Shown here: positions 1 through 31,249 of the stretch, piece by piece
How the letters are laid out: the number at the start of each line of letters is the position of its first letter
How positions within the stretch are numbered: position 1 is the first letter of the stretch
From: a virus
IMG/VR virus record: IMGVR_UViG_3300025085_000014
Location: 1-64,000 of that record
DNA length: 64,000 bases
Strand: one strand, 5' to 3'
Position numbers and translations under genes: made by a program
Notes under the pieces: model-generated
The model's input: the letters and a program-made list of their open reading frames with translations, nothing else
What the model was told of the DNA's origin: nothing
The model's database searches: none

Positions 1-16
1 TAGGTTTGATGATAGC

Positions 17-10387: not shown

Positions 10388-10389
10388 TT

Positions 10390-12909: not shown

Positions 12910-12945
12910 ACCCTAAAAGTGTAATGAAAAACCTTTTAAAACTTA

Positions 12946-12971
12946 AAAAATTTTAGTAATTTAGACCTATG
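12946..12971 (+). promoter_or_regulatory. shared upstream element ending TTTAGAC before ATG
   Basis: The 59-base gap before 12969 ends in AATTTTAGTAATTTAGACCT-ATG. The gap before 16085 ends in AATTTTAAGAATATTTAGAC-ATG. The shared pattern AATTTTA(N)nATTTAGAC is not seen before the other genes of this block. It may be a promoter tail or a translation-start element. Confidence 0.3.
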
Positions 12972-15900
12972 GCAACTTATATACCAGGAATAGAATCATA
13001 TACACCGGAGTACACAGCTTTTGAACCAGACTTTAAGTTTGCTCAAGCTGTTTTAAGTACAAGACAGGATAGATATGATACCAACTACAAGCAATTAAAT
13101 GATTTATATGGCAGTGTGATTTATGCCGATATGAGTAGAGAAGACACTAAAGCACAGAGAGATCAATTTGCTGATAAGCTTGTGCCCTCTATTAATAAAA
13201 TTGCAGATATGGATTTATCTATAGGTAAAAATGTAGATGCAGCAAAAGGTGTGTTTAATCCATTTATAGAAAACAAACTAATCCAACAAGACATATATAG
13301 AACTGCTAAGTATAAAGGAGAATTAGGCAGGGCTCAAAGTTTATTGGATGCTCCAAATTTAAAAGCTAGTCAACAATATTGGCAGACAGGTATTGATTAT
13401 ATGAATTATCAAATGGATGATTTTATTAATGCAAGCCCAGAGGAAGCTATGAATAAACCAATGCCTAAGTATGTAGCTAATGCCAACCTGTATGATATGG
13501 CATTAGATTATCTTAAGGAATCAGGTATTGAGGCAGAAGATTTTTATTTTACAAAAGACAAGAAGTTTATTATTAAACAAACAAATGGTAGTTTAATATA
13601 TGATGCTTCATATGATAGAGTTAAAAGAGCTTTAGCAACAAATGGTAAAGTACAACAAGCATATGCTGCAGATAGTTACGTACAAGCAAGAAGACATGCA
13701 GAAAGAGGAGTTGAAGCTGGGCAATATTCTACAATCAATGAAGGTAGAGTTGCTTGGGCTGAGAACACAATTTCTGATATTACTTTTAAAGCTAACGAAC
13801 TACAACTTCAGTTTGAAGGAAAGAGTAAAGAATTAGATGAGCTTAGACAAAAGCATGAAAATAGAATAAAAGAAGTAGGAGAAGAAAATCTAACACAAAT
13901 AGAAAAGGACTCTTATTTAGATGTGATGACTGAGAGACAAGAAGTAGAAGAACAAGCTACTGCTAATTCTGAGTTGGTTGAAAAGATGGGACAACTTACT
14001 ACGGATGAAGAAAGTCTTTTAAACAGAGCCTATGGTTCTTTAATGAATTGGAATATTAGTGATGATTTAAGAGCAGCTGCTAAATCTTACTCTATGCAAG
14101 GAGCCAAAAGAGTTCCTATGGTAAATGACTTTCAAAGAGATATAGAAAGACATAAACTTAATATGATTAGAGATGCTCAGAATAATGCGTTTAAAGCAGA
14201 GGAGAATAGATTAAATAGAATAAATGAATTAAAGGCAGCTGGTGCTTATATTGATCCAGCAATAAAAAAAGCATTAGATAATTTTAGTGGTGGCTTATCA
14301 GGTAATGTAGCATTTAATACAGATGCAGATGGTAATCCAAATGCAGATACTGATATTTACGCACAAAAAAATGCAGAGTTAGGAGATGCTCAAGATAAAG
14401 TAAGAAATGATCAAATAGAAACTTTATTATATTTTCATCAAAAAGATCAAGCATCTCTTGGTATGAATGGAAAACCTGAAACAATTAACATACCGGGTCC
14501 AAATGGTGACAAAGCTTATACTATTAATGAAGCAAGAGAAATATTAAGAAAGCCAGAGAATCAAGCTTTTTTAAATTCTAAGTATGAAACCATATCAAAC
14601 AATTTTGCAACAGAAGAAGATAGAAAAAAATATGCACCTGGTATATCTACAAGAGATGCGTTAGTTATAAAAAATCAAATAAATACTACATCTGGTTTAG
14701 CAAGTAGAATAGTAAATGCAGAAAAGGAATTTAATAAAAGAGCTTCTGAGAATTATTCTAAGTTGTTAAATTTTAAAAATACAACAGGTGTACCAGAGAT
14801 TATTGAAGACATTGAGGAGTATGGTGCTCCTAGTATAATAAAGGATAATAAAGTTCTTACTGAAGATGAATATGTAAAGATAGCAGTTGAAAAAGCACGT
14901 GAAAAGAAATTTACAGATAAAACACGTATAGATGAAACCTTTTATAGAATGGAGTATGCAAATTCTAATATCTATTATGGTCCAGGTATGGGAGGTGGTG
15001 CATATGCTACTGGTAAACAGTACTTTGATGAAAAGTGGGCTACAGAATCGGCTAAGGAAGCATACTCAAGACAATACAATGCAATGAATAGAACCTTAAA
15101 TGGATTCTATAATTATGATCAATCAAGAGCAGGAGATAATCCTCAAGATGTAGAACCTGGTTATCAAGCATATGGTATTCATACTTTGATGAGAGGTGGT
15201 TCAGCTAATCTTATGACAGATGAAACTGCTTTTATGTCTAATACATATACTACAGGTTTAGTATCTCCTAAAACACTTGCTAATATGCCGGGAGAACAGA
15301 GAGTTGTTTTAAGTGATTTCATTAGTCAATTAAATGCTGGAGGAGTTCAGTTTTTAGCTGGTGATGTTAAGACTGTTGATCAAGATGATTTAAATGAAAG
15401 AATAGAAGCAACTGGTAGTAAAGCACAAAAAATGGTCAATCAAAGTATGATGGATTTAAGTGCAGGTATAGCGGCTGATGATAAGAAAGGTTTGTTTACT
15501 GTAACATATATTGATGCATATGGTGCTCAAGGTGGTGATCAAAGCCAAGGTGCTTATGTGATTAGATTTGATCAAACAGCCATGAATAAATCTGTAGGGT
15601 TAGTTGGAGATAATGCACCAGGTACAGGTATAATTGGAAAGCAAGAAAAAGAATTATATTCAACTGTAACAGTATTGGTCAACTCAGATCAAGATGTAAG
15701 TGGGTATGGACAAAGTCAATATACATATAATTCAGTTGATACAGATATAGACTTTACAGGTTCTTATTATAGAAACGTACCAGAAGCTGGTTCATTTAAG
15801 ATTTGGAAAGACGGAGATAGTTATGTAACTTCAATAGAAGAACAGATATATGCTCCTGATGATCCTAAAGCTGTAAATGGTTTTGTAACAAATACTTTAG

Positions 15901-16061
15901 GAACAAGAAAAGTTGTTTATCCACAATCATATGGAGATAGATATGGTCAACCTGTTACAAGAGCTGACATACAGCAAGTTGCTGATTTCATGCAAAACGT
16001 TAGACTTATGGAAACATTTGAATCTAATCAAGCACTTATCAATAAGAGAAATAAAAAATAA
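12969..16061 (+). CDS. large helical virion cargo-like protein
   Basis: A 1,030-residue protein, unrecognised by motif. The first 150 residues contain FKFAQAVLSTRQDRYDTNYKQLNDLYGSV, a helical pattern common at the N-terminus of phage internal proteins. Residues about 265-345 are Lys/Glu-rich with coiled-coil heptads (LQFEGKSKELDELRQKHENR). The second half is mixed, Gly/Tyr-rich with a beta-like C-terminal domain (about 830-1,000). No signal peptide or membrane segment was seen. It is flanked by cargo-like proteins and the giant polymerase, so it is probably a virion component loaded in the head or tail. It has its own upstream element rather than an overlap with the previous gene. Confidence 0.6.
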   Translation: MATYIPGIESYTPEYTAFEPDFKFAQAVLSTRQDRYDTNYKQLNDLYGSVIYADMSREDTKAQRDQFADKLVPSINKIADMDLSIGKNVDAAKGVFNPFIENKLIQQDIYRTAKYKGELGRAQSLLDAPNLKASQQYWQTGIDYMNYQMDDFINASPEEAMNKPMPKYVANANLYDMALDYLKESGIEAEDFYFTKDKKFIIKQTNGSLIYDASYDRVKRALATNGKVQQAYAADSYVQARRHAERGVEAGQYSTINEGRVAWAENTISDITFKANELQLQFEGKSKELDELRQKHENRIKEVGEENLTQIEKDSYLDVMTERQEVEEQATANSELVEKMGQLTTDEESLLNRAYGSLMNWNISDDLRAAAKSYSMQGAKRVPMVNDFQRDIERHKLNMIRDAQNNAFKAEENRLNRINELKAAGAYIDPAIKKALDNFSGGLSGNVAFNTDADGNPNADTDIYAQKNAELGDAQDKVRNDQIETLLYFHQKDQASLGMNGKPETINIPGPNGDKAYTINEAREILRKPENQAFLNSKYETISNNFATEEDRKKYAPGISTRDALVIKNQINTTSGLASRIVNAEKEFNKRASENYSKLLNFKNTTGVPEIIEDIEEYGAPSIIKDNKVLTEDEYVKIAVEKAREKKFTDKTRIDETFYRMEYANSNIYYGPGMGGGAYATGKQYFDEKWATESAKEAYSRQYNAMNRTLNGFYNYDQSRAGDNPQDVEPGYQAYGIHTLMRGGSANLMTDETAFMSNTYTTGLVSPKTLANMPGEQRVVLSDFISQLNAGGVQFLAGDVKTVDQDDLNERIEATGSKAQKMVNQSMMDLSAGIAADDKKGLFTVTYIDAYGAQGGDQSQGAYVIRFDQTAMNKSVGLVGDNAPGTGIIGKQEKELYSTVTVLVNSDQDVSGYGQSQYTYNSVDTDIDFTGSYYRNVPEAGSFKIWKDGDSYVTSIEEQIYAPDDPKAVNGFVTNTLGTRKVVYPQSYGDRYGQPVTRADIQQVADFMQNVRLMETFESNQALINKRNKK

Positions 16062-16084: not shown

Positions 16085-19000
16085 ATGGAGAACAACTTTG
16101 ATAGCCCATTAAGTGAACCTACATCTAACAATATAGTAGACAACTCTGCCTCAATGGAGCCAGCAGATATATTAGAATTAGGTTATGATCCTGATTACTT
16201 GATGTCAGTTGATGATGAATATCTTGATATGGTAACAACGATTGCTCCTTATATGGGATCACCTGTTACTAATAAAGCTACATCACAAACACAAACAGCA
16301 ATAGATCCTGATGATTGGTTTGCTGCTAACAAAGTTTTTGATAAACCAACACAAAGAGATGTAAAACCAAGAGAAGCATTTAGTATTAGAAATACAAACT
16401 TTGATCACTTTTATGCACATCCTCAATATCATAGATTAGGCTTTAGTCCTACAAGAAATAATGAAGAGTTTTATAATGAAAATTCTGATTGGGTAGATAA
16501 CTTTTCAAGATCTATGGGTCAATTTGGAAAAAACTTTGCTCCAGGTTTTTCTTTCTTTGGTTTATCCGATGCCCTGTTTGACAATAACAACCAAGGTGTT
16601 TTTGATTTATTTGACAGTGATCCAGATACAGAAGCTGCAGTAGACATGGCTGAAGCTATGAGAATAGGTAATGATAGCTCTGAAGGTTTTGGTGGTGCAT
16701 TTAATAGATTTGCTTTAAATAGTGCTTACAGTATAAGTATTATGAGTAGTATTGCAGCTGAAGAGCTAGCAATGTGGGGAGCAACAGCTGCTTTGACTGC
16801 AGCAACTCCAGCTACATTTGGTGTATCTGGTGCGGCAGCGGCTGCTACAGGTACTGCTGCTGCAGCAAGATCTGTTTATAATGCAGGAAGATTTGCAAAG
16901 ATGCTTCGTACAATGAGGCAAATGGGTAATGCTACTTCTGTAGGTAGAATGTTTAATGGTGGTTACCAAATGGTAAAGACTTTAAAAAGTGCAGAAAAAG
17001 CAAGAGATTTTTGGACTGCTTTTGGAACTGGGAAAAATGTTGTTGGTAGAATCTTTCTACCTGAAACAATGCAAGCATTAAGATCTTTTGATAGAACAAA
17101 AGATGTAGCTAATGGCTTGGGTAAGTTTGGTAAAGCTGCTGCAGGTTTTGGTGGTTTTTATAGAGATATGAGAATGATTGATCTAGCATTAGATGAGTCT
17201 AGGTTAGAAGCTGGTTTTGTTTACAATGATTTAGTAAGCAATGGTATGGCTATAGAACAGTTTAAAAATGGTAATACTGATTTATCAGAAAAACAGTTAA
17301 AAGATATACAAGAACAAGCAGCCGCTGGTGCTTTTACAACGCTTAAAGGTAATGCAGGTCTAATCTATTTAACAAACAGAGTTACTTTTGGTGCAATGGT
17401 AACTCCATTTAGCCGTGGGCTTAGGAGAGTTTTAGATAATAATCTTGGTGCTGCTGGTAAAAAAATAATGCAAACTAAAAAGTTTGTAAAGAATGGTAAG
17501 ATACAAGAGAATGTAGTAGGAAGAAAAAAATCACTTTGGACAAAAGAAGGTTGGAGACAGAGATCTGAGGTTTATAACTTTGGTGATTATGTAAGGTTTG
17601 GAGCACAGGGTGCATTAAGATTTTTTGCTGGTAACATATCAGAAGGTGTTCAGGAACTTTATCAAGAAGCAATGCAGGTTGGTGTTGTTGATTATTATTC
17701 TGGTTTGATAAAAGATCCAGCTGCTAATAAAAGATATTTATATAATGCTTCTTTAGATAGTGCAATACAGAGTCAAATGTCTGCACAAGGTTTTGAAGTA
17801 TTTATGTCTGGTTTTGCAACAGGTGGTATATTAGGTGGTGGAAACAAACTTATATATAATGTTGCACCTGATACATTCAACCGTGTTTTTAATAAAGAAG
17901 AATTTGCAAAAAAGAGAGAAGAAAGAGAAAAGCAACTTGATGATCTTGTTAAAACAATTAATGAAGGATTAAATTTACAAGCTAAGAAAGGGCAATCAAT
18001 TTTTGATGTAGAAAGCTTAAACTTTATTAAAGCTAAGCAAGGTGCAGAAGGAATGCAAACTGCTAATTATGAAGGTGATAGATTAGACTTTAAAGATAAT
18101 CAAGATTTTCTTGAATTTAATACTTTAGTTCAAGCTATTAACAATGGCATGGTAGATACATTCCGTGATCAAATAAAAGCAATAGTTAATCTTGATGATA
18201 AAGCTTTAACAGAAGCATATCCACATCTAAAGAAAGAAATAAAGTCCGGTAAAACAAGGAAACAATTTAATGCTTTAGTTGAAAAGTCTTATGACTTAGA
18301 AAAAACATATAAGAAGGAAAGAGATGATAACCCTAATCCATACTCTGTAAATAAATACAAGTATGGAGAAAGAGAATATTTTATAGAGCTGTTCAAGCAG
18401 CAAGCTTGGGAACATGCAACATATTTAAAAATGTTTACTAAACAATCTTTTATGGATTCTCAAAAGAGAATGCAATCCATATTTGATGCATTAACAATAG
18501 AAGATATTATATATGCAGTTGGTAAAGATGGATCATCTAAAGTTTCTAAACTAGCAGCAAGTGATCTTACAGTATTATTAGACCCACAGAGTGTAAGAAG
18601 TGAAATAAAACTACTTGCTAATGAAATTGCAAATCTTGAACAAGGAGAAGATGTTGAGTTATTAAACAAGAAAAAGAAAAAGAAAGAGTTATTAGAAAAC
18701 TACTTTCAAGTTTTTACAGATGCCAATAATCAAACTACTACAAAAGGTTCTGGATTAAAGTATCAAATGGGTACTCAGGTATCTAAAAAAGAAGGAATCC
18801 TAACACAGAAGTTTGATAAAAGAAAAACATCTAAGCTTACAAAATCCTTTACGGAATACATTGAATTTTTAGCAGAAGATAATAATATATTTGCTGATAA
18901 GTCTAAAATTAATGAAGTTGTAAAACAGATAGTAGACTATGGTGAATTACAATATAGAACTAAAATGTATGATAAAGCAGTTGAGGTTTTAAATAACCCA

Positions 19001-22000
19001 ACTGTATTTGATGAGTTAACTGAAAGAACTTACAAGTTTATAAAAGATCAGTATCTTAAAGATAAGGATGTAAATACTCAAAGAATAAAGCTTAAAGATG
19101 CAATGAATCAAGATGATGTATCTCAAGTCATTAATGATTTACATGAATTAGGAATAACACCCGATCCATCAGAAGTTGAAGACTTTATTGCAACTGGTGA
19201 TATAGAAAATTTACAAACCTTTAACACAGAGTATGGTCCGTTAGATCCTATGCAGGATCCAGCAAAATTTATAAATGTAGCAAGGATTAAAAATAATTAT
19301 ATTGAGCTTACTAATCCAACAGCTGAGGATGCTGAAACAGAAGAGATAAAAGATGCTGTAGAGGAAGATGCTGAGGTTAAAGAAAAAGCAGCTACTGTAA
19401 TTAACAGTGATAACAAAGTAAACTCTTTTGCTAAAAATATTTTATTATCAAGATTGGCTGTGGTAAATGGTCAACTAGTAAAATCTGGTAAAAAAAGATT
19501 AACTCTAGAACAGTGGCAAAAAACTGAAGAGGCTCAAGAACTTGCAAGTATCCTACATGATCTTAAAGCATTATGGGTACAATCATTAGATCCAACTCAA
19601 GATAACTTAGGTGTTACTATAAAATCTGGAGAAGGTTTTAAAGAATGGATATTAGAAAATAAAGATGATCCTACAGTAAGAGAGCTTGTTGTTGGTATGG
19701 GAGAGCCGCTTGGTTTAACTTTTGAACTTATTGAAGGCAAAGCAGCTACAACAAAAAATAAGGAGCGTAAGGACATAGTTGATGCAAAAGGAGGTTTAAG
19801 AATTAGAAAAGTTGTTACGGATGTAAAAGGTCAAAAGACAACTGGTTATGTTGTTGAGCTTGCAGACGGTAGCCCTGTTCCAGAAAATTTTTATGAAGCT
19901 GCGGGAATAGATCCTAAAAATATAAGAAGCTCATACTCTACAATACAAGAAGCTAAAAATAAAATATTTAGAAAACTTTTAGATACAATACCAGATACAG
20001 ATACTTTTACTTTTGGTATAGGTGAGAATGTAAAAACATTACGTTACGGAGATGTAGTTACAGATAAAGACGGTAGAAGATTTATTGTTTTAGGTACACC
20101 AGCTAAAGTTAAAGAAGATGGTACTTTATTTATTTTACCTGAAGATCAGATAGATAAATATAGAACAACTAAATCTAGAGAAAAAGCAGCTAAGAGAGTA
20201 AGTGCAGCAGATTTTGTTGAATATAATATTCTAGAAGAAACTTTTTCTGATACATTAGTAGCTAAAGATACTCCAAGGTTAACTATTAAAAACATACTTG
20301 GTATTTATGCATTAGGTATAACAGATAAGCTTTCAACAGAAGATGCAAAAAAAGCATTGAAGGTTATATTACAGCAATTAACTCCTGAAGAATTACAAGA
20401 GATACAATTAACTGTTACTAAAAATAATCCTGGTGATTTTAAAAAGGTATTTAAGGATGAGATAAGTAAAAAAGAAAATAAAAGAATAAGAATAGTAAAA
20501 GAAGACTACTCTTTTAATTTAAACTTTACTAATCCAGAGACACGTAATAAAATAAACAAAGCATTAGAAGAGACAGGTTTCCAAGATGTAACTTTAAATG
20601 ATATGGCTATACAATTACCTTCTGGTAATTATAGATTTTTAGATGAGTCAGGAAATGTTATAGAAAACATATTTAGTAGATCTAATTCAGAACTTAAACA
20701 ATTCTTTCACAATCCAAAGTCAGCATTATATTCTTTAGCTAAACAACAAGTATTAAGAAAACGCATACTTGATAAAGTTAAGCTTGGTGATTCGGTTCTT
20801 TTATCAGATGTTGTAGACGGTACAAAGTTCTTCATGAAGTATTTATATGATACAGAAAACTTTAACGTCAATGTATCTCAATTAACTAACTCTACATATG
20901 ATGGAGAACAAGTTGTAATAGATTATACATATAGAAGAGACCCTCAAACTAAAAAAAGAAATAGAGTTGTAACAATTAGAACAAACTATCCTGTAGGTTC
21001 TGATGAACATAAAGCATTAAGAAATAAAGTACAGAAAGAGTTATCAGAAAAAACTCTTGCTAATGGTACTACCTTAATGGATTATCTAAAAAAGACTAGA
21101 AAAACTGATAGATATCACTCTGTAATAAAACTACCAAACGGTACAATAGCGTTTGCTCCATTAAAAGCAAGAGCATTAACCGAGGAATCTCAATCAGAAA
21201 TTTTAGAAGAAATTGTCAAGCAAGTAGAAAAGACAAAAGAAGAAAATCTAGAAGATGTTGATGGCACCGTAAGAACAAAGTCTGTTTCTTTTAATGATAC
21301 CTTTAATGAAGGTGAGACAATGAATTCATTTTATATTTATTTGAAGTCAGGCTACAATGCAGAATTAAAAGTAAATCAACGTGGTAATATAGAATTTAAA
21401 ATAATAGATACTGTTGCAGATAAAACTATACATAATAGTTTTATTCAGCTAAAAGGAGATACTACGTTTGATGGTATTGTAAAACTATTACAAAAGGGAA
21501 TTAAAAAAGATGGTAAAATTAGTAAGAAAGGGCTTTCAATATCCAAAGCATCCTTTAGACAAAACATACCTGATACAGTAACACCTCAAGCAATACTACT
21601 TCTTACTAATACTAATTTTCAAGAAGAATCTTTTAATACTTCATATGTAGAGTATGAAGTATCACATGAAGATATTGTTAATTATCAAGAAGGTCAAAGA
21701 GCTGCAGATACTATAAAAGCAGAAGAAGATGCACTTGAAGAAAGTAAAAAGAAAGATAGTAAATTAGATCAAGCAATAGATGAAGCAACACCTAATGCAG
21801 CTGGTGTTAATGCAATGTCTCAAGAAGAGTTTGATGAATTAGAAAACGATGATTTTGAAGAAATATCTTTAGATGATTTAAAACTAATTGCAATTAAAGT
21901 TGCAAAAGGAATTTCTCTTAGTAAAAGAGAAGCAGTTGTAAAGAAAGTAAAAGATACTACTATATCAACTTTAGTAGCAACATTAGAGAGAAGAACTAAA

Positions 22001-25000
22001 TCATCAGATAATAATGAATATGAAAAAGCATTAGAAGCAAGAAACGCTGCCAAAGAAGCTTTAGATAATTATACTAATGAGCTACAAAGTAAAGTAGATT
22101 CTGGTGAGATTACTGGTGTTGAGTATATACAATTTACTGCAAATGGAAAGGATGCAGAGTTTAAGAAACTTAAAAAGGCTTTTACGAAGGCAGAAAGAAT
22201 TGTAAATAGTTTTGCAGGTAAAATTATAACTGAAGGATTTACTAATAAAGAAACAGAGTCTATAGAGATGTTTATGGACTGGGCAAAAAATAATTTACCT
22301 GACTTTATTACTATAAAAGATATAAGTGAAATAGCTGATAGACTAAAAGTTAATGGAGTACCTGTTGGTCTGTTTGTAACCAACCTGACAAATTTAGCTG
22401 GTGGTGTTGCAACAGGAGGTACTATATACGTGGGAGAACAAGGGTTTAGATATCATGAAGCATTCCACTCTGTGTTTAGATTATTACTAACTACAGAAGA
22501 ACAAAATAAATACTTAGCAATAGCTAAGAAAGAAGCACGTGCAAAGCTTAGATCAGAAGGTAAAGACTTTACTGTTGAGCTTAGCAAGTTTAGAAGCAAG
22601 GCTGCAAAGTATCAAAAAATGTCAGCTGCTGCTTTAGAAAGAGAATATTATGAAGAGTACATGGCTGATGAGTTTGAAAAGTTTAAGAAAAACCCAAGAA
22701 GCACTAAAACATCTTCAACAATAAAATCATTCTTTAACAGATTACTGGAGTGGATCAAAGGTGTAACGCGTAGGTTTACAAAAAATGAACTTAATGATTT
22801 ATTTGAAAATATAGATGCTGGTAAATATAAAGGTGCTGGTATAATAAACAACAACTTTACTACAGGTTTAAGTTCGGGTGTTGCATTAGAAGCTTACAAA
22901 ATGTTAGCTTATGAAAAAGTAGAACTAGAAAGAGGGTTTGCTGAAAAGTTTGTTGATCCTGATACTGCTACTAAAGTTATTAGAACTATGGGAGCTGCTT
23001 ATTTAAATAAATTAGCAACTACAGATCCAAAAGTCTTAAAAGATATAAAAGGAAAATCAAGACAAGAAGTATTAATAGACACAATAAAAGACTTTAGAGA
23101 TTTATATAATCCTGTTGGGGAACATAATGCTGATAAGTCAGGTGCTCAAATAGATAAGTTGTTTAAACTGTATACTGCATTAGGTGGTATAATAGGTGAA
23201 TCAACAAAAGAAACATTGACTCAACAGATTGAGTATCAACAGAATGCAGTTGAAGCAACAATGCAATATATATCTGTATTTGATACACAAATTTTAAATG
23301 AGCAATATCAGAACGAAGAACTTGAGTATGAGGAAGGTTTAAGAAACACATCTCAATGGGATAAAGATCAATCTATGATTGGTGGATTTAATAGTCTACC
23401 TACTGCATTTAGATCTTTCTTGGGAACAACACAAATTATTGAAGCTGATGAGTTTGGTAATACTAAGTTATTAAATGGTCAACAGATATATACACCTGTT
23501 GATTATATAAGTGCATACAATGGCTTACTTAAGTCTGTAAAGAATACAACTGATGCTTCTAGTATTTTAAGAAACATGGTTGGTTTTTCAATAGGAAATG
23601 TACAAACAGCTGCTGTAGTTGATAAAATATTTAACAAGCTTGGAGGTGCTACCTTTACAAAAGAATTTGTAATGGAGTCAACCAATGAAGAGCTTATAGA
23701 TGCGGTAACAAATAAAATTTTCTTTAATGAAATTAATGTTGCTTTAGAAAACTACAGAGTTGATTACTTATTTTACCACACAAACTTAGGAGCAAAAGGG
23801 AAAAAGATAGCAATATATAATGCTGCCAATAGAGATGATGCATCTAATCAAATAGATGTTTGGAAACAAGCACATAATGAGAAGTATAAAAAAATAAGAG
23901 ATAATCAGTTTGCTTTAAATGAAGCAGTGGATGCATTGCAGGCACTTGGTTTTAATTTAGATACAGACAATATAACAAAAATAAAAGATGCTGTAACTTT
24001 AGCTAAGTTATCACAAAAACTTTCTAATGATATATATGATACAGTAGGTATTAAGTTTTCACCTGCATATATACAATTCTCTATTGCTAGTAATCTTGAA
24101 AACAGAGATTCACAATTAGAGGCTCTTATTCTTAATAACAAAAATGCTGAACCAATTGAAATTGCACAACTTGAAGAAATGGTTGTACAACTAAAATTAA
24201 CTCAAGAAGCGCGTAGAACTTCAGCTTATTTATTTAATAGAAAAGGTGGTATAAAATCACGCTTACAAAAGCTAGCAAAAAACAATGCATTGTTTGATGA
24301 AACAATAGGTCAAAGTGTTTTCTTAAATCCTGAAGGTAACTTTGTTTATGCTCATCAAAAACAAACACTACACCTTAAGATGATCAGTAAGATGAATGAT
24401 GATTCTTTCTTATCTGAGCTAGAAACAGCAAATGAAGGTTATAACTTAGAAAATATTTTATTAGAGAGTGAAGCATTTAGAGCTCTCTCAGAACAAGACA
24501 GATTACAAGTGTTAAGGGTAGCCGGTACAAAATCAAGTTTTATGTCGGGTTCTACAGAAAATGCTTTAAGTGATGAAGGAGGTCTTGGTGCTGATAAACT
24601 TAGTAAAACATATGGTGGATTAAAAGGACCTGAATTTGTAGCTACATTAATAAATACATATTTATCCCAATATCAAACATACAAGCAACAAAATAAAACA
24701 GTTGAGTTTGTAAACCAAGAAGGGGAGGTTGTAGAAACAGCTCTTGCTCCTGTATTAATTAGAGTTATAGAAGCTTCTAACACAGGTGACTTAGTTGCTT
24801 TACCAGTAATTAAAACAGTTGAAGTAAAAGAAGGAAAAGTAGAGTTAACATCTGTGACTACTTCTTTATTTTTAGGAGAAATTAGAAGAGAATTTAAAAG
24901 AATACAAAGAGAGGCTGCAAAAAAAGATGAAGACAAAGCCATACTAGAGGGATACAATTCTAAGAATGGTGCAGTTCAAGATGATTATAGTGGACGTGCA

Positions 25001-28000
25001 TACAAGTTTAATGACACAGCAACTTTATTAGAAAGCCAACAAGATGCAGAAAATAGAGTTGAAGCTAATGATCCTAAATTCAGCGATGATGCGTCACAAA
25101 GAATAATTGATGGCAAGCAAGATCATGTATATGTTAGTCAAGCTCAAGCTCAAGCAATAGGTTTGACTGTTGAAAACTCTAATGCTAGAGTTACTGTAAA
25201 AAGTAAAAAGGGTGAAAGAGAATTTCAATTAATTTCTTTGGGTCAAATCAGTGAAGTTAATACTGGTAATATAGGATCAATTGTTGCTAGTCTTGGTTCA
25301 GCTGTTCTTAATCAACAAGAGTATGAGAGTTTAGATAAGAAAGAACAAGCAAAGTATTTAACAAAGAATAAAGTTAAAGTAGGTGACGTAAGCTTGTGGG
25401 TTGACACTGCAGTAATTGCTGAATTTTTAAGAGGTGGTCAAAAAACTAGTGGAAGAAATAAAAGCAAATATGGTTATAGACTAGTTCCTGTAGAAAACTT
25501 TACGGCAGAAGAATATAGTGGCTTAGAGTTTAACTATAAAGAAGCGTTAGAAACCTTTGCAATAGAAAATACAGATGCAACATTAGAAGAAGCAATTGAA
25601 AGTTTAAGTGAGAACATGTCATTAGATATGTTTAATAAAGTCTTGAATGAAAGACTTATGCAAGAGTTTGATAGGTTTGATCAAACTCTAGATAACTTTC
25701 TTGTGAGAAGTATGATAACTGATGATATAAAGAACGGTATTGAAAATGATGAAGGGAATCGTCAAGGAGATGCTGCTATGGAACAGTTAAATCTTATAAG
25801 AGACAATGAACGTCATAATTTAATGCAGATCTTTTTTAATGATTGGTTAAATACAAAAGCATTAAATCAATTAATACTAGGTGATCAAGCTATATCACTT
25901 AAGGATGCAGTTGATAAAGTTAAAAGAGCTAAGATGCAAAACGCATCTCACATAAGTGCAAGCTCTCCTGTATTTGATGAAAGGTTAGGTGTTAACCATA
26001 CAAATGATAACATATCCCTTATATCATTTACTGATCCAGAGTTTGACCGTACATACGCCAAAGGTAAAGGAGAAAGAGCAGATGCTCAAATGTATATAAC
26101 AACCAAAGCATTAAGACACATGTTATTTGGCTTTGCACAATTGGATGCAAGAAAAGCTGATTTAATTAATAGAATTGAAAAAGGTGAAAGAGTTAATGCA
26201 GAAGAACTGTTTGGTAAAGGAGGTTACATAAAAGAAGGTGCTGTATTTAATTCATTAAAATTAGTATATGGTGACGGTCAGACATTCTTAAAAATGTCAG
26301 CAGTAGTACTTACCCCTGAATTAACAACGAAGGTAGATGGTACACCTAAACCACAATATGAAAAACTACATAATCTTAGACTAAGATTAGAGAAAGTAGA
26401 AGAGCAAGGAAATAATACATTGGGTATTGCTGCACCTTTAAGTGCATCTAAAATGATGAAAAAGAATACTCTATCTTATGAAGAGGCTTTTTCTGAATTT
26501 AATCCTAATGATAATGCTGTTGTAACTACAGATCTTAAGGCTGAGTTTATGGGTCTACAATTAGTTAACCCATCAAACAAAGTTATAATTACAGATCCTA
26601 CTCAGATGAAAAGTCTTATTTCATCAGAGCTTTTAGATTCTGAAGAAGTTTATGTAAAAGCATTTGGTGTAGAAACTAAAATACCTATTGGTAAATTAAG
26701 GGAACAATACCACAGAGCAACAACCAATAGACTTAATCTAAAATATTTTGGTAAAGTAAATCTTATTACAAACTTTACAGTTGAGGCTGGAATGAACGAG
26801 CTTAATCTAAGCAAACAACAAGGTAAACTTACGGTAGACTTAGAAAACTTTTTAAAGTTTGCATCAGAATCATTAAAAGCAAGTCAGGCATCAAGCAATG
26901 TTCTTGAATATTTTAATCCTGAAAACGGTTATGATTTAAATAACCCAATGGTTCAAAAAAGCTTTCAGCAATTATTCTTAAGTTATTTTGCTAAAGATAC
27001 AATGTCTGAAAAATCTCCTGGTTTATCCTTAGCACTTGCATCAGACTTTGGCGTTAACGTTGTTAGAAGAGTATTTTCTGTTGATGAAAATGGTAATCCT
27101 GATAAGCATGAAATAATTAGAGAGAAGTATTATAACTTTTTAGATAACCCACCTGCTATACAAATAAGAGCAGATGAAGACGGTAAACTAATAGGTTTAG
27201 AAGCAGCATTAGAAAACTCTGGTGGTAAAGGCGTTGTTGTGTTAGATCAACTAAGACACAATTTAAAAGAGTATGACAACAAAGGTAACTTTACGGGTCA
27301 AAGATATTCAGAAGGTTTAGCACCTGCACACTTTGCAGAAATAGCAGAAGACTTTGATGGAACTAATATTAAAATGCCTGACGTTGTACAAAAAGCATTT
27401 GCTGTTCGTATTCCATCTCAAGATAAACATTCTGCTTATGCAACTAAATTTGTAGACTTTTTACCTGCATTTTATGGATCAACTGCAATATTCTCAAAAG
27501 AGTTAATTGAAATATCAGGAGCGGATTTTGATATTGATAAAGTATACACACATATAAAAGAATGGTATAAAGATGGAGACAATAATTATGTAGAGTATGG
27601 TGACCTATCAAGATCTAAAACAGATCAGTTTAGAGATTACATACATTACATAAAAGAAGCTGGCATAAAAGGTAAAAGTATTTATGCTGATGCTTTTGAA
27701 AAAGCTAAAATGAACTTCCAAGACTTTATGCTTTACAGTGAAGAAGAGCTAAATGAATTTAAAGAACTTACAGGTTTATCAGAAGATTATTTAAGAGCAC
27801 TTAAAGTATTAAATCTTCCTACAACACAAAAGAAGTTTGATGCACATGTAAAGAAAAAAGGTATGCCTTATGAAGCTGCTTTAAATAATCAGATATTAGA
27901 TTACAAGTTTGCTTTATGGTCTAATGAAGGTAATACCATTTCAACAAAAGATGGTGTTAACCCTATTGCATATGACCCTGCTGTTTTAGATCCTTTAATT

Positions 28001-31000
28001 GAGGTTAGAGATTATATACAAACAGAATTGCCTGAATTGGCTGAGCTTTTTAGAGAAGACGGTTTAGATGTAGATAACTTACTTGGTAAATTTAAAGCAT
28101 TCTCAAACAATAAGGAGGGAGCAGCTTCTATTGGAGCAGCTGTATTACCTAACCTTTATTTAAATGTTTTAGGTGAAGCTAAAATTAAAATGAGAAAGGT
28201 TTCTGTAAAAGGACAGGTTATACGTCAAATATCTTTTAACGGTATTGACTATGATAATTTTGGAGAACAGTATGAAAGAAGAGTAATAAAGAAAAAAATA
28301 AAAGGTAAGGAAGTAGAAGTAGAAGTAAAGGGGGAAAGAACTCAATATATAATTTCTGCTTTAATTACGGCAATGACAGATAATGCTAAAGAACGTTTAG
28401 CAGCAAAGCTGGGTCTAAATAAAGATGCACTTAGTGTAGTAACTACTTTGACTAAACTAGGTGTACCAATTAAGACTTCAATTTTATTAGTAAATAATGC
28501 ATACATAAGAGATGAATATTTTCAAACTACTATTGGTGCAGGAAGAGGTATAAGAAAAAGAATCACTGATATAATGGATTCTTTAGTAAAAACATTTGAA
28601 GGTATAGAATCTGATGTAACTAGAGTTACAGATCAAATACTATATGAACAAGCTGCTAATCCAAAATTATCAGACACACCTATTGCTGACTTAGAATATA
28701 ATCAAGCAGTAGCTTTATATTCTATACTTAAGCAATTTATTACAGCTCATGACTTAAAAGGTTTTGTTGGTAATATGGCTGGTTTGATGAATTTTTCAAA
28801 AGGATTTGGGCGTAATTTTGTTGATTTTGATGATAGACTGAATGACCTAAGAGACATGGGTATTGATTTAAGTGATGCTGAATTTGATGCTGCTATTTAC
28901 AAAGGTGCGCCATTACCAATTGATATTAGAGAAATAGTTAAGAACAAACCTTGGCAATTTAATTTATATAAGGTTGCATCTCACTTTGAAGGAAGAATAC
29001 TACCTAATATATTTTTAAGTAGAACAAAAACATTTAATCAGATATTAAAAACGGTAGCTTTAAATTTATCTGCAAATCCTCAAATATTTGGAGGTGAAGA
29101 TTATCAAAAAGTATCAGATGATTTATTGTCCTACTTAACAATTAAAGCTTACATGCATAAGCTTGAGAAAAGAGGACAGTCTGTAGCATTATCATCATTA
29201 AGTAATGCAATGTTATATCCACAAGCAGGTACATCATTAAACATACATACTTTGGTTGATGAGTTAAGACAAGAGTTTCCAAATAATGAATTTTTAAATG
29301 AATTCTCATTTAATGAAAATGCAAGAGAGTTAGATAATAAAAAAGGAATTCATTCTTTAGAGTCTAACACTTTTGGTAAGAGAAGTGATCTTGATAGACT
29401 TAGAGTGCAGACTGACTTTATGGAATTATTCTCAGAAAGAAGAACTGAAGCTACACATATAATTCATTATATGATGGTTAAAGACGGCTTACAATTTGGA
29501 GCAGGTACCTTATTGGATGCAATTACTCCACAAGTTTTAGATGGCTTTACACAGTCTACAGAAGAAGTCTTTAATATGATGAAAAATTCTAGAAAAGATT
29601 TATTTGAAAATTACTTTGGTGTAAACTTTGATCAATTAATAAATGAGTTTACAATAGGTTATTTACAGTCTTCTCCATCAGCACGTATTTTAGATGAAAA
29701 GAAAAATGTAAAACTTTATAGTCAGCTGTTTGAAGAAACAGAAGCACTTGCTACATCAGTAACTTCAAAAATTGCTGCAAACAATCCTGAAAAAATTTAC
29801 ATCTTTAGTGATAATCAACAAGAGATAGGTGCAAGCGGTTTAAGAGGAATGGATAATACAGTAGGTTTAACTTTAAAATATGATCTAACAACTTTTTATG
29901 ACGCGGATGATTTAAATAACTTTGTAGAAAGGTTTGATGAGCAGATAGAAGAAATCAAAAATGCTAACAAAAAGGTTGTTTTTCCTAAAGTCCTATTAAC
30001 AAAAGAAGAAGTTAAAAATCTAAAAAAATCTTCTAGAGAAATATATAACTATATAGACTCAACACTTAGACAAGAGTTTGGTTATAGTTTAGAGAATGGT
30101 ATCATGAATGATAAGTCAGATCCAAACTCTGCAAGTAAAGCTGCAATTAGGACATTACCAGTTTCTATGGATTTTTCAGGTGGTTCAAAAAAATTAATTG
30201 TAGATATATATAAAGGCATAGTGCGTTTATCTCCATCTGATAAAGTACAGACTGTAAGAAAATTACCAGACTCTCTTTCAAAAAAGAATTTAAATTCTGG
30301 AAAGAAAGGTGCAAAGAAATTTACAAGCAGAGATAAATTAATGAGTAATGAAGGAGTTCTAAAGAAGGCAGGTTTTGTTGTAAAAACTATATCTGTTAAG
30401 TCAGGATCAAATACTAAGGTGGTAGAACTTCCGGTTATTTTAAGAGTTACAAATGGTGATACTAAAAGAGGAAGCAGAACAAAAAAAGTAACTAGATACT
30501 TTAAGCTTGTTCAAGCATATGGTCCTGTAAGACAAGATCAACAACTTGTAAATACTAGTACAGGTATTACAGAAGGTAATGCAGGTATATATGAAGAAAT
30601 GGATATGCAAGGTTCAATCTACCAAAACGCAATAGGTTTTATGTTTGATAGTACATTCTTTACACGTCCTAGTTATAATACAGTTAAAGAGTTTGTTTCA
30701 AGTCTAGATGAAGAAGGTGGTTTTATAGATAATGATATGATAGGCTTCTCAGAAGAAGTACAAGATGTTCTAGCAGAAGCACGAGCTAAAGGCTTTGAAG
30801 TTATTTATAGAGGTAATCAATTGTTTATTGATTTAAATACATTCTCTGAAAGCAATTCAGAAGAGTTAGTTCCAATCAAAGAAGTAACAATGCAGCAACT
30901 AGAAGACCGTGATATAGATATATCTTTTACTGAATCTGTTGAAGAAACTGAAGAAGTTGAAGAAACTGAAGATGTTGATACGAGTAATGCCCCTGTTATA

Positions 31001-31249
31001 AGTATGGGTGCATTTGCTGATAGTTTGTTTGGAGCAGAAGAATCAGAAGAATCAGACGTAAGTGAAGAGTATAAAGAGATTACAGATTTTTGGAATCAAA
31101 ACATAGACTTAAATGCAGAAGCATTGGCTAGGCTAAAAGAGCAAAAAATTGTAACTTTGGAAGACTTCATAGCAAAGAGAAATGATCCGGATATGAACTA
31201 CAATAGTGACGAAGAGTTTTTAGATAATATTAAATCTTGTATAATATAA
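16085..31249 (+). CDS. giant virion RNA polymerase polyprotein (crAss-like, DFDID motif)
   Basis: A 5,054-residue protein from one uninterrupted 15.2-kb frame. The key signature is SGADFDIDK, with DFDID at residues 3814-3818. It is preceded by the phrase RIPSQDKHSAYATKFVDFLPAFYG, so the context matches crAss-like virion RNA polymerases (phi14:2 gp66 type), whose DxDxD loop binds the catalytic Mg ion. An HExxH zincin-like motif (YHEAFHSVF, H2124-E2125-H2128) suggests a metallopeptidase-like domain. The first 600 residues look cargo-like, with hydrophobic Ala-rich stretches near 215-265. Two acidic linkers (about 1,080-1,110 and 4,950-5,000) look like domain boundaries. In phi14:2 the polymerase is far shorter, so this appears to be a fusion of cargo, peptidase-like and polymerase parts. 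It would be packaged and ejected to transcribe early genes. Polymerase call is strong on motif; the other domains are inferred. Confidence 0.78.
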   Translation: MENNFDSPLSEPTSNNIVDNSASMEPADILELGYDPDYLMSVDDEYLDMVTTIAPYMGSPVTNKATSQTQTAIDPDDWFAANKVFDKPTQRDVKPREAFSIRNTNFDHFYAHPQYHRLGFSPTRNNEEFYNENSDWVDNFSRSMGQFGKNFAPGFSFFGLSDALFDNNNQGVFDLFDSDPDTEAAVDMAEAMRIGNDSSEGFGGAFNRFALNSAYSISIMSSIAAEELAMWGATAALTAATPATFGVSGAAAAATGTAAAARSVYNAGRFAKMLRTMRQMGNATSVGRMFNGGYQMVKTLKSAEKARDFWTAFGTGKNVVGRIFLPETMQALRSFDRTKDVANGLGKFGKAAAGFGGFYRDMRMIDLALDESRLEAGFVYNDLVSNGMAIEQFKNGNTDLSEKQLKDIQEQAAAGAFTTLKGNAGLIYLTNRVTFGAMVTPFSRGLRRVLDNNLGAAGKKIMQTKKFVKNGKIQENVVGRKKSLWTKEGWRQRSEVYNFGDYVRFGAQGALRFFAGNISEGVQELYQEAMQVGVVDYYSGLIKDPAANKRYLYNASLDSAIQSQMSAQGFEVFMSGFATGGILGGGNKLIYNVAPDTFNRVFNKEEFAKKREEREKQLDDLVKTINEGLNLQAKKGQSIFDVESLNFIKAKQGAEGMQTANYEGDRLDFKDNQDFLEFNTLVQAINNGMVDTFRDQIKAIVNLDDKALTEAYPHLKKEIKSGKTRKQFNALVEKSYDLEKTYKKERDDNPNPYSVNKYKYGEREYFIELFKQQAWEHATYLKMFTKQSFMDSQKRMQSIFDALTIEDIIYAVGKDGSSKVSKLAASDLTVLLDPQSVRSEIKLLANEIANLEQGEDVELLNKKKKKKELLENYFQVFTDANNQTTTKGSGLKYQMGTQVSKKEGILTQKFDKRKTSKLTKSFTEYIEFLAEDNNIFADKSKINEVVKQIVDYGELQYRTKMYDKAVEVLNNPTVFDELTERTYKFIKDQYLKDKDVNTQRIKLKDAMNQDDVSQVINDLHELGITPDPSEVEDFIATGDIENLQTFNTEYGPLDPMQDPAKFINVARIKNNYIELTNPTAEDAETEEIKDAVEEDAEVKEKAATVINSDNKVNSFAKNILLSRLAVVNGQLVKSGKKRLTLEQWQKTEEAQELASILHDLKALWVQSLDPTQDNLGVTIKSGEGFKEWILENKDDPTVRELVVGMGEPLGLTFELIEGKAATTKNKERKDIVDAKGGLRIRKVVTDVKGQKTTGYVVELADGSPVPENFYEAAGIDPKNIRSSYSTIQEAKNKIFRKLLDTIPDTDTFTFGIGENVKTLRYGDVVTDKDGRRFIVLGTPAKVKEDGTLFILPEDQIDKYRTTKSREKAAKRVSAADFVEYNILEETFSDTLVAKDTPRLTIKNILGIYALGITDKLSTEDAKKALKVILQQLTPEELQEIQLTVTKNNPGDFKKVFKDEISKKENKRIRIVKEDYSFNLNFTNPETRNKINKALEETGFQDVTLNDMAIQLPSGNYRFLDESGNVIENIFSRSNSELKQFFHNPKSALYSLAKQQVLRKRILDKVKLGDSVLLSDVVDGTKFFMKYLYDTENFNVNVSQLTNSTYDGEQVVIDYTYRRDPQTKKRNRVVTIRTNYPVGSDEHKALRNKVQKELSEKTLANGTTLMDYLKKTRKTDRYHSVIKLPNGTIAFAPLKARALTEESQSEILEEIVKQVEKTKEENLEDVDGTVRTKSVSFNDTFNEGETMNSFYIYLKSGYNAELKVNQRGNIEFKIIDTVADKTIHNSFIQLKGDTTFDGIVKLLQKGIKKDGKISKKGLSISKASFRQNIPDTVTPQAILLLTNTNFQEESFNTSYVEYEVSHEDIVNYQEGQRAADTIKAEEDALEESKKKDSKLDQAIDEATPNAAGVNAMSQEEFDELENDDFEEISLDDLKLIAIKVAKGISLSKREAVVKKVKDTTISTLVATLERRTKSSDNNEYEKALEARNAAKEALDNYTNELQSKVDSGEITGVEYIQFTANGKDAEFKKLKKAFTKAERIVNSFAGKIITEGFTNKETESIEMFMDWAKNNLPDFITIKDISEIADRLKVNGVPVGLFVTNLTNLAGGVATGGTIYVGEQGFRYHEAFHSVFRLLLTTEEQNKYLAIAKKEARAKLRSEGKDFTVELSKFRSKAAKYQKMSAAALEREYYEEYMADEFEKFKKNPRSTKTSSTIKSFFNRLLEWIKGVTRRFTKNELNDLFENIDAGKYKGAGIINNNFTTGLSSGVALEAYKMLAYEKVELERGFAEKFVDPDTATKVIRTMGAAYLNKLATTDPKVLKDIKGKSRQEVLIDTIKDFRDLYNPVGEHNADKSGAQIDKLFKLYTALGGIIGESTKETLTQQIEYQQNAVEATMQYISVFDTQILNEQYQNEELEYEEGLRNTSQWDKDQSMIGGFNSLPTAFRSFLGTTQIIEADEFGNTKLLNGQQIYTPVDYISAYNGLLKSVKNTTDASSILRNMVGFSIGNVQTAAVVDKIFNKLGGATFTKEFVMESTNEELIDAVTNKIFFNEINVALENYRVDYLFYHTNLGAKGKKIAIYNAANRDDASNQIDVWKQAHNEKYKKIRDNQFALNEAVDALQALGFNLDTDNITKIKDAVTLAKLSQKLSNDIYDTVGIKFSPAYIQFSIASNLENRDSQLEALILNNKNAEPIEIAQLEEMVVQLKLTQEARRTSAYLFNRKGGIKSRLQKLAKNNALFDETIGQSVFLNPEGNFVYAHQKQTLHLKMISKMNDDSFLSELETANEGYNLENILLESEAFRALSEQDRLQVLRVAGTKSSFMSGSTENALSDEGGLGADKLSKTYGGLKGPEFVATLINTYLSQYQTYKQQNKTVEFVNQEGEVVETALAPVLIRVIEASNTGDLVALPVIKTVEVKEGKVELTSVTTSLFLGEIRREFKRIQREAAKKDEDKAILEGYNSKNGAVQDDYSGRAYKFNDTATLLESQQDAENRVEANDPKFSDDASQRIIDGKQDHVYVSQAQAQAIGLTVENSNARVTVKSKKGEREFQLISLGQISEVNTGNIGSIVASLGSAVLNQQEYESLDKKEQAKYLTKNKVKVGDVSLWVDTAVIAEFLRGGQKTSGRNKSKYGYRLVPVENFTAEEYSGLEFNYKEALETFAIENTDATLEEAIESLSENMSLDMFNKVLNERLMQEFDRFDQTLDNFLVRSMITDDIKNGIENDEGNRQGDAAMEQLNLIRDNERHNLMQIFFNDWLNTKALNQLILGDQAISLKDAVDKVKRAKMQNASHISASSPVFDERLGVNHTNDNISLISFTDPEFDRTYAKGKGERADAQMYITTKALRHMLFGFAQLDARKADLINRIEKGERVNAEELFGKGGYIKEGAVFNSLKLVYGDGQTFLKMSAVVLTPELTTKVDGTPKPQYEKLHNLRLRLEKVEEQGNNTLGIAAPLSASKMMKKNTLSYEEAFSEFNPNDNAVVTTDLKAEFMGLQLVNPSNKVIITDPTQMKSLISSELLDSEEVYVKAFGVETKIPIGKLREQYHRATTNRLNLKYFGKVNLITNFTVEAGMNELNLSKQQGKLTVDLENFLKFASESLKASQASSNVLEYFNPENGYDLNNPMVQKSFQQLFLSYFAKDTMSEKSPGLSLALASDFGVNVVRRVFSVDENGNPDKHEIIREKYYNFLDNPPAIQIRADEDGKLIGLEAALENSGGKGVVVLDQLRHNLKEYDNKGNFTGQRYSEGLAPAHFAEIAEDFDGTNIKMPDVVQKAFAVRIPSQDKHSAYATKFVDFLPAFYGSTAIFSKELIEISGADFDIDKVYTHIKEWYKDGDNNYVEYGDLSRSKTDQFRDYIHYIKEAGIKGKSIYADAFEKAKMNFQDFMLYSEEELNEFKELTGLSEDYLRALKVLNLPTTQKKFDAHVKKKGMPYEAALNNQILDYKFALWSNEGNTISTKDGVNPIAYDPAVLDPLIEVRDYIQTELPELAELFREDGLDVDNLLGKFKAFSNNKEGAASIGAAVLPNLYLNVLGEAKIKMRKVSVKGQVIRQISFNGIDYDNFGEQYERRVIKKKIKGKEVEVEVKGERTQYIISALITAMTDNAKERLAAKLGLNKDALSVVTTLTKLGVPIKTSILLVNNAYIRDEYFQTTIGAGRGIRKRITDIMDSLVKTFEGIESDVTRVTDQILYEQAANPKLSDTPIADLEYNQAVALYSILKQFITAHDLKGFVGNMAGLMNFSKGFGRNFVDFDDRLNDLRDMGIDLSDAEFDAAIYKGAPLPIDIREIVKNKPWQFNLYKVASHFEGRILPNIFLSRTKTFNQILKTVALNLSANPQIFGGEDYQKVSDDLLSYLTIKAYMHKLEKRGQSVALSSLSNAMLYPQAGTSLNIHTLVDELRQEFPNNEFLNEFSFNENARELDNKKGIHSLESNTFGKRSDLDRLRVQTDFMELFSERRTEATHIIHYMMVKDGLQFGAGTLLDAITPQVLDGFTQSTEEVFNMMKNSRKDLFENYFGVNFDQLINEFTIGYLQSSPSARILDEKKNVKLYSQLFEETEALATSVTSKIAANNPEKIYIFSDNQQEIGASGLRGMDNTVGLTLKYDLTTFYDADDLNNFVERFDEQIEEIKNANKKVVFPKVLLTKEEVKNLKKSSREIYNYIDSTLRQEFGYSLENGIMNDKSDPNSASKAAIRTLPVSMDFSGGSKKLIVDIYKGIVRLSPSDKVQTVRKLPDSLSKKNLNSGKKGAKKFTSRDKLMSNEGVLKKAGFVVKTISVKSGSNTKVVELPVILRVTNGDTKRGSRTKKVTRYFKLVQAYGPVRQDQQLVNTSTGITEGNAGIYEEMDMQGSIYQNAIGFMFDSTFFTRPSYNTVKEFVSSLDEEGGFIDNDMIGFSEEVQDVLAEARAKGFEVIYRGNQLFIDLNTFSESNSEELVPIKEVTMQQLEDRDIDISFTESVEETEEVEETEDVDTSNAPVISMGAFADSLFGAEESEESDVSEEYKEITDFWNQNIDLNAEALARLKEQKIVTLEDFIAKRNDPDMNYNSDEEFLDNIKSCII

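Follow-up and report, generated by a model that had tools for sequence, protein, structure and literature searches.

Single cysteines mark the facing ends of crAss-like phage RNA polymerase proteins, including a fused giant of 5,054 residues

The first 64,000 bases of the 69,135-base virus record IMGVR_UViG_3300025085_000014 (hereafter, the window) contain one uninterrupted open reading frame (ORF), running from ATG to stop, for a protein of 5,054 amino acids (aa; ~570 kDa). This giant is the two-barrel RNA polymerase (RNAP) of a crAss-like phage, which by analogy with phage crAss001 would be carried in the virion, and we regard both its polymerase identity and its fusion to a further part as virtually certain. 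As judged from sequence comparison, the window carries the counterparts of crAss001 gp47 and gp50 fused into one protein, followed by that of gp49. Fused polymerases of this kind are already known; our subject is a regularity of their cysteines. In the homologous proteins, ordered gp47–gp50–gp49, each end adjoining a neighbour bears a single cysteine, and in most of the phages there are few or no others. This rule is almost certainly functional and probably reflects the joining of the proteins, tail to head, into a single chain.

Terminal cysteines in the window and in reference phages

The giant contains a single cysteine, close to its C-terminus, and the protein encoded immediately downstream contains a single cysteine, close to its N-terminus (Table 1). 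At the rate found in other ORFs (7.83 per 1,000 aa), ~40 cysteines would be expected in the giant, and the probability of finding at most one is about 3e-16. The same pattern recurs in reference phages in which the proteins are encoded by separate genes. In phi14:2, the only cysteine of g067, which occupies the gp47 position, is its last residue (1797 of 1797), the two cysteines of g066 (gp66) are residues 3 and 2179 of 2180, and the only cysteine of g065 is residue 3, within an MSC start. In crAss001, cysteines are found at residue 2339 of 2341 in gp47, at residues 5, 1334, and 2404 of 2412 in gp50, and at residue 5 in gp49. In crAss002, Cys2019 of gp32 is followed by a single residue, and Cys35 of gp33 is the third residue counted from an MSC start at residue 33, with six further internal cysteines. 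The outer ends of the chain lack cysteine in the phage of the window, phi14:2, crAss001, and crAss002 alike. The annotated start of crAss002 gp33 (locus L073, 12089-24826) is probably 32 codons too early, with MSCTPSNP beginning at that point; the MSC start is also present in the 96% identical L080 and is the annotated start of cr11_1 gp66. The terminal cysteines had gone unmentioned in the initial annotation of the window, which had read the giant as a polyprotein that might be cut; they point to linking rather than cutting.

Comparison with described phages places the giant among several arrangements of the same parts. It shares with phi14:2 gp66 the single-chain two-barrel polymerase, the DFDID loop, the gene order, and the end cysteines, but gp66 is separate from g067, so that phi14:2 has three genes. 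In crAss001, the two halves of the giant have homologues in gp47 and gp50 and the next ORF has one in gp49, with cysteines at the gp47 end and the gp49 start, but these proteins are encoded by three genes, two of which lie on the opposite strand, and gp50 has the third, internal cysteine. The arrangement of the window is found in four Suoliviridae genomes, in which cr56_1 gp39, cr10_1 gp32, cr4_1 gp26, and cr55_1 gp070 combine HEAxH and DFDxD motifs in one ORF of 4,460-4,551 aa; all four have a terminal cysteine 3-10 residues from the end, and in cr56_1, cr4_1, and cr55_1 a large gene in the gp49 position follows and begins with a cysteine. They differ from the giant of the window in having a few internal cysteines, and the cr56_1 and cr4_1 frames contain many stops under translation table 11 (recoded). 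In crAss002 gp33, cr11_1 gp66, and cr127_1 gp49, of Intestiviridae/Crevaviridae, the fusion differs, as gp50 is joined to gp49 in ORFs of 4,133-4,388 aa (judged by length), and cysteines stand at both ends of the break that remains; the C-terminus of crAss002 gp33 matches a gp49-like ORF. Outside the crassviruses, the virion RNAP gp50 of phage N4 is likewise a giant carried in the virion and is free of cysteine (3,500 aa), but is a single-subunit polymerase of the T7-like type. No cysteine is present in N4 gp51 and gp52 or in T7 gp15 and gp16 either, so that scarcity of cysteine may be a general trait of ejected cargo proteins. The virion RNAP of phage P23-45 also lies inside a giant virion protein and has a related fold, but it is N-terminal, its partner is a 5,002-residue tape measure protein, and the phage is of another type (PMC10770324).

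Survey of 158 polymerase ORFs

To the loci related to the giant, we added RNAP loci fetched with queries from Steigviridae, Intestiviridae/Crevaviridae, and Suoliviridae (for the last, the best 80 of 460 relatives); zeta and epsilon crass phages were not among the groups sampled by name. The survey comprised 184 records (the window, L003-L080, and L083-L187). Twenty-two of these were without an RNAP ORF of 1,000 aa under table 11 and four were duplicates, leaving 158; two of the 22, cr56_1 and cr4_1, nonetheless follow the rule. Fusion status was assigned from the length of the ORF on either side of DFDxD and not from its cysteines. Kept outside the tallies were 46 ORFs with an open left end, 5 with an open right end, 8 'N fragments', and 3 'C fragments'; among the seven N fragments with an upstream ORF, that ORF ends with a cysteine in L096, L166, and L177 and lacks one in L025, L044, L135, and L178.

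Wherever the gene stops after the RNAP part, a cysteine is present in its last 15 aa (132/132), and the next ORF has one in its first 10 aa in 122 of 124 cases. The two misses are L068, where the cysteine is at position 11 (a matter of start choice), and L184, where the next ORF is 383 bases away. When the RNAP is instead fused to the gp49-like part, a cysteine occurs in the last 15 aa of only 2 of 18 ORFs, both of them odd ORFs that begin ~280 residues ahead of DFDxD (L166, L177). The other border behaves in the same way. Where gp47 and the RNAP are broken apart, the RNAP ORF begins with a cysteine in 30 of 34 loci (the misses being L073 and L074, due to start choice, and L020 and L060, with overlapping frames), and the upstream ORF ends with one in 24 of 26 (misses, L060 and L169), whereas an N-terminal cysteine is found in just 2 of 70 fused proteins (L089, L175). 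Three ORFs that, by length, contain all three parts (L105, 5,824 aa; L115, 5,547 aa; L181, 5,472 aa) have no terminal cysteine, and L181 has no cysteine anywhere. In other complete ORFs, taken as a control, cysteines are present in the first 10 aa of 14/157 and in the last 15 aa of 25/157. The far, outer end of gp49-like ORFs has a cysteine in 1 of 115 (L144), and the ORFs directly upstream of fused giants have no C-terminal cysteine (0/52) and, indeed, not one cysteine in 24,853 aa (16 loci have no such ORF, and L089 and L175 were excluded). Overall, cysteines amount to 0.71 per 1,000 aa in RNAP ORFs and 0.78 in gp49-like ORFs. The end cysteines are encoded by TGT in 120 and TGC in 12 cases and lie 0 to 13 residues from the stop. 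Collectively, records from four crassvirus families, as well as many environmental relatives, show the rule.

Paired cysteines also appear where genes are broken at unusual sites. The breaks of L093 and L096 are upstream of the HExxH motif and, by position, inside the gp47-like part; the upstream proteins end in KEKC and EKKC, and the downstream proteins start with MACEYW. The break of L153 likewise precedes HExxH, with DNPC followed by MSKFC. In L166 and L177, the break falls inside the RNAP itself, where the ends NKKCD and FKKC are followed by MACQYF or MACEYF. Between the split RNAP parts of these two loci, before the catalytic motif, there is an ORF of 162-167 aa (L166, 9331-9816; L177, 9249-9749), possibly a mobile element.

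The giant is a genuine fusion protein

To assess whether the frame is real, we scanned viral contigs with residues 3301-4233 of the giant and obtained 68 loci of its family, of which non-redundant relatives were aligned in 47 rows. The reported frame with an HEAFH motif (residues 2124-2128) and a DFDID motif (3814-3818, within SGADFDIDK) was borne out at the same coordinates. H2124, E2125, F2127, H2128, D3814, F3815, D3816, and D3818 are invariant in 47/47 relatives and A2126 is conserved in 46/47; because the key residues are identical throughout, neither motif is a product of chance. An ORF of 3,800 aa or more that ends within the locus on its right side is present in 50 of the 68 loci. This set includes L002, which is 100% identical and was treated as the window's own virus; L032, which has an open left end, would qualify, and shows both motifs, was excluded by hand. 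HE[AG]FH and DFD[IV]D are both present in all 50. An assembly error joining separate genes, the possibility that the initial annotation had named as fatal to its reading, is thus ruled out, and the fusion is a property of a large group. In the 61 loci with both motifs in one ORF, their spacing ranges from 1,351 to 1,952 residues, and ORFs among the 68 loci reach up to 5,404 aa (some left ends being open); the frame is interrupted inside the locus in four (L020, L025, L044, L060). The earlier presentation of the giant as exceptional does not hold, given the four Suoliviridae genomes in GenBank described above and a review that mentions RNA polymerase genes of crAss-like phages reaching ~6,000 aa (PMC10136315). 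Of the two acidic linkers previously described, we recovered one, a 30-residue stretch (starts 4933-4941) with 13-14 acidic residues; no second stretch reaches 13.

We used hhalign to compare slices of the 47-row alignment with virion proteins of crassviruses. Two slices correspond to crAss001 gp47: giant residues 124-992 match gp47 82-925 (probability 98.6) and 2064-2253 match gp47 2103-2295 (98.8); their other pairings are at most 2.5, apart from a weak match of the N-terminal slice to phi14:2 g067 (28.5). Further downstream, the giant follows crAss001 gp50, with residues 2425-2975 matching gp50 288-799 (81.2), 3237-4354 matching gp50 956-2042 (99.7), and 4406-4588 matching gp50 2090-2250 (64.9). 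Nearly the same central stretch matches phi14:2 g066 851-1835 (99.6), and crAss002 gp33 matches around the catalytic loop (97.9). The middle slice 1000-2000 had no match among crassvirus virion proteins, and all remaining pairings were at most 6.2. Against 28 reference proteins, phmmer with the giant yielded nothing at E 1, and the 47-row profile detected five, all relatives of gp47 or gp50/gp66; crAss002 gp33 was not among them and was detected by BLASTP and hhalign. In searches with single slices, 3301-4233 retrieved crass RNAPs, 1801-2400 gave weak hits only (E 2 or worse), all wholly or partly covering the HExxH region or just before it, and a single-sequence tblastn search of phages with the last 1,254 residues gave no hit at 1e-5. 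Scans of the giant against PHROG and Pfam gave a sole hit above the curated cut-off, DUF7831 (residues 4559-4657; window 29759-30055; E 5.1e-7), perhaps an accessory domain; the C-terminal part that bears it shows poor conservation, with gaps in about half of the aligned relatives.

The polymerase core was modelled with AlphaFold2 as the slice 3200-4399, using the 47-row alignment as input (pLDDT 84.3, pTM 0.84). In a profile search of the Protein Data Bank (PDB) at E up to 1, the sole sequence was 6vr4 (phi14:2 gp66; E 4.8e-32), and Foldseek with the model likewise returned 6vr4_A (E 7.5e-27) and nothing else below 0.001. In VIA-align, 6vr4_A scored Z 21.1 (rmsd 3.7 over 877 residues), followed by QDE-1 entries at Z about 15 (best 15.6); P23-45 gp96 scored Z 9.0. 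The double-psi barrels that had been anticipated in this region are supported by these alignments with gp66 and QDE-1, in which the barrels were not outlined individually. A tape-measure-fused RNAP of the P23-45 gp96 type was rejected, as the core lies at residues 3256-4315 of 5054 and not at the N-terminus. The gene order (muzzle, cargo, RNAP, RNAP-associated proteins) matches the block of the phi14:2 gp66 family, with the cargo ORFs assigned by position only. Together with the hhalign order of gp47 and then gp50, the fold match sustains the proposal that this protein joins a virion RNA polymerase of the crAss-like kind with cargo-like and peptidase-like parts.

The HExxH domain

Downstream of HExxH, residues E2190, E2191, A2194, and F2197 are invariant in 47/47 relatives, and E2190 or E2191 is a candidate for the third zinc ligand, by comparison with known gluzincins. 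Judging from these residues alone, the domain is likely a zinc peptidase of the gluzincin type. The same domain ends crAss001 gp47 (HEAFH at 2157 of 2341) and cr128_1 gp51, both products of separate genes, and HExxH is lacking in phi14:2 g067. GenBank labels the gp47-position protein of cr11_1, which has an HENLH stretch possibly homologous to this domain, as 'putative RNAP associated protein fused to zincin protease'. A model of residues 1990-2600 had low confidence (pLDDT 72.1, pTM 0.52) and matched no PDB entry at E 0.001, with weak and mostly short helical Foldseek and VIA-align matches. Some gp49-position proteins also bear an HExxH motif, namely phi14:2 g065 (L071), cr56_1 gp38 (L076), cr4_1 gp27 (L078), and cr55_1 gp71 (L079), so that the polymerase may be accompanied by a second peptidase-like domain.

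Genomic neighbourhood of the giant

The features discussed are listed in Table 1. The downstream ORF was assigned by phmmer matches to cr128_1 gp52 (2.8e-19) and crAss001 gp49 (2.4e-18) and by BLASTP to phi14:2 g065 (9e-12). The three upstream ORFs have no sequence match to gp45/gp46, and their cargo assignment rests on position. The muzzle-like protein matches PHROG 37948 (E 1.9e-52) and, weakly by BLASTP, cr128_1 gp48 (0.004) and crAss001 gp44 (0.022). Between the muzzle and cargo genes (window 4765-8067) lies a gene for a LysM/peptidoglycan-binding/lysozyme-like protein; in the Crevaviridae phage cr127_1, a putative endolysin is similarly placed. Elsewhere, window 49455-50288 on the minus strand encodes a spore photoproduct lyase-like protein (E 2.4e-16), a DNA repair enzyme unexpected in a phage. 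A search for a crassvirus-type major capsid protein with crAss001 gp32 as single query, without completeness estimates or a positive control, matched 0/4 records.

Table 1. Features of the giant polymerase gene and its neighbours in the window
Feature	Position	Strand	Remarks
Muzzle-like virion structural protein	2..4765	+	Frame open at window start (possibly cut)
Three upstream ORFs (757, 839, 1,030 aa)	8114..16061	+	Crassvirus cargo position; no cysteine
Giant ORF	16085..31249	+	gp47-like cargo part fused to gp50/gp66-like virion RNA polymerase
gp47-like part, residues 1 to ~2253	16085..22843	+	hhalign to crAss001 gp47
HEAFH, residues 2124-2128	22454..22468	+	Putative zinc-peptidase motif; H, E, F, H identical in 47/47
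E2190-E2191 of EEYMADEF	22652..22657	+	Candidate third zinc ligand; identical in 47/47
Junction zone, residues ~2254-2424	22844..23356	+	Cysteine-free; from last gp47 match to first gp50 match
Two-barrel RNA polymerase core, residues ~3256-4315	25850..29029	+	AlphaFold2 model compared with 6vr4_A and QDE-1
DFDID, residues 3814-3818	27524..27538	+	Catalytic DxDxD loop; aligned with phi14:2 gp66 DFDID 1361-1365
Cys5052, TGT codon	31238..31240	+	Sole cysteine of the giant; followed by two residues
Downstream ORF, 1,893 aa	31253..36934	+	gp49/g065 homologue; RNA polymerase-associated virion protein
Cys4 (MAKC), TGT codon	31262..31264	+	Only cysteine of the downstream protein

Discussion

The crAss001 virion packs gp45, gp46, and the RNAP proteins gp47, gp49, and gp50; disulfides hold its tail assembly together, and both exit of gp45 N-terminus first and partial unfolding of the cargo en route are expected (PMC10172136). 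With this as a template, the end cysteines would join neighbouring proteins tail to head, the simplest bond being a disulfide made in the mature virion, and the three parts would travel as one chain in which gene fusion replaces the disulfide with a peptide bond. Such a chain would be packed near the portal and threaded N-terminus first, partly unfolded, through the tail; its covalent continuity would fix the order and ratio of the proteins during ejection, and, with other cysteines scarce, wrong disulfides that would stop it from threading would be avoided. In the reducing cytoplasm of the host, a disulfide-linked chain would come apart, refold, and transcribe the early genes, and the HExxH domain would probably act as a zinc peptidase during or after entry. 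We put the probability of an end-to-end polymerase chain as a whole, in which the disulfide, its timing, and its role are inferred, at roughly 0.6. To its most general form, according to which breaks at any place acquire cysteines at both ends rejoined by a disulfide, fusions have none, and that disulfide is a redox switch, kept closed outside the cell and opened in the host to free the subunits, we give about even odds. The main text of the crAss001 study does not contain the word cysteine, and a search of the open-access literature by title and abstract, which did not extend to the phi14:2 structure paper, gave no description of the rule among the papers listed.

Several points weigh against the disulfide-linked chain. 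The disulfide is deduced, the counts showing paired ends and not a bond; virion location and ejection are taken for this phage from crAss001; and, the cytoplasm in which virions assemble being reducing, only late formation of the bond would be feasible. The tallies are not blind, as both the length limits and the windows of 10 and 15 residues were chosen with the ORF data already in view. Breaks without end cysteines occur in seven loci (L020, L025, L044, L060, L157, L173, L178), of which all except L060 and L157 look like frame breaks: L025 and L178 have 96-99% identical intact relatives (96-97% for L025), and L020, L044, and L173 align across the break with a frame change. In the upstream partners of L169 and L135, the only cysteine is 31 and 23 residues from the end, respectively. 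Neither is scarcity of cysteine universal: the Intestiviridae-like RNAP ORFs of L098-L101, L104, and L107 hold 12-24 cysteines, L134 holds 12, L089 and L175 hold 17, and, among 82 complete ORFs ending after the RNAP part, 37 have exactly one cysteine. Lone terminal cysteines are also present in virion proteins of other phages, such as N4 gp54 (MSC; N4 is L082) and T7 gp14 (MC; T7 is L081), and an end cysteine therefore need not mean a chain. In hhalign, slices 2330-3200 and 4400-5054 failed to match phi14:2 g066 (probabilities 0.7 and 0.2), and the gp47 slices failed to match crAss002 gp32 (at most 0.9). Finally, independent changes are few. On a FastTree phylogeny (157 rows, 465 columns), the gp50/gp49 junction changed four times and the cysteines followed in 4/4 independent pairs (p 0.125); at the gp47/gp50 junction, they followed in 5-6 of 10 pairs as first labelled, the rest showing no difference, and in 6/6 after six loci had been excluded or reset by hand (p 0.031).

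The alternatives differ in how much of this they accommodate. The end cysteines might meet tail to head as proposed and yet bind a metal (zinc or an iron-sulfur cluster), dock a shared partner such as the portal, or aid assembly of the holoenzyme after entry. The survey, which counts ends, is neutral on the bond, and although each junction offers just two cysteines, several copies per virion could complete a metal site (for crAss001, six copies of each RNAP protein are given as an example; PMC10172136). No conserved histidine or second cysteine is seen by eye near the ends, and a covalent link between neighbours is the simplest explanation for the loss of the pair on fusion; we consider these non-disulfide roles unlikely, if still the most serious competitor. 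It is scarcely credible that the terminal cysteines arose by chance, persist as relics of shared ancestry, or are a side effect of some DNA signal where genes start and end. All the sequences are related, many of the gene borders are homologous, and, as noted, independent changes are few, but 132/132 compares with 25/157 in other ORFs, the distance to the stop varies, and the cysteines are absent on fusion and present at breaks elsewhere. A start or stop signal that makes a cysteine codon by chance was rejected, both TGT and TGC being in use. Lipid anchors and split inteins were weighed as well and laid aside.

That the HExxH domain cuts, at linkers, the polyprotein of which it is part, either as the virion assembles or on ejection, appears improbable, and nothing in our analysis indicates the self-cutting that had been suggested. 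In its favour, HExxH and EExxA are invariant in 47/47 relatives, the stretch 2301-2400 is less conserved than its neighbours, and a PRO-PRO endopeptidase gives a weak profile match (E 0.19). Yet the zincin fold was not found for the predicted slice, a low-confidence model, the phages with non-fused proteins bear end cysteines at the break, and phi14:2 g067 lacks the motif. Because the domain ends gp47 whether the protein is fused or separate, as in crAss001 and cr128_1, its proximity to the junction is no sign of self-processing.

The giant fused RNAPs were known before, and what is new here is the end-cysteine rule, which would go well beyond them if the bond is confirmed and which is testable with cultured laboratory phages. 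For annotators, the rule offers a means of distinguishing genuine gene breaks from frame errors and of revising start codons, as for crAss002 gp33. For the biology of crAss-like phages, it accounts for the occurrence of one set of proteins in the form of one, two, or three genes and suggests a physical answer to the question of how huge proteins are packed, kept in order, and passed through a narrow tail.

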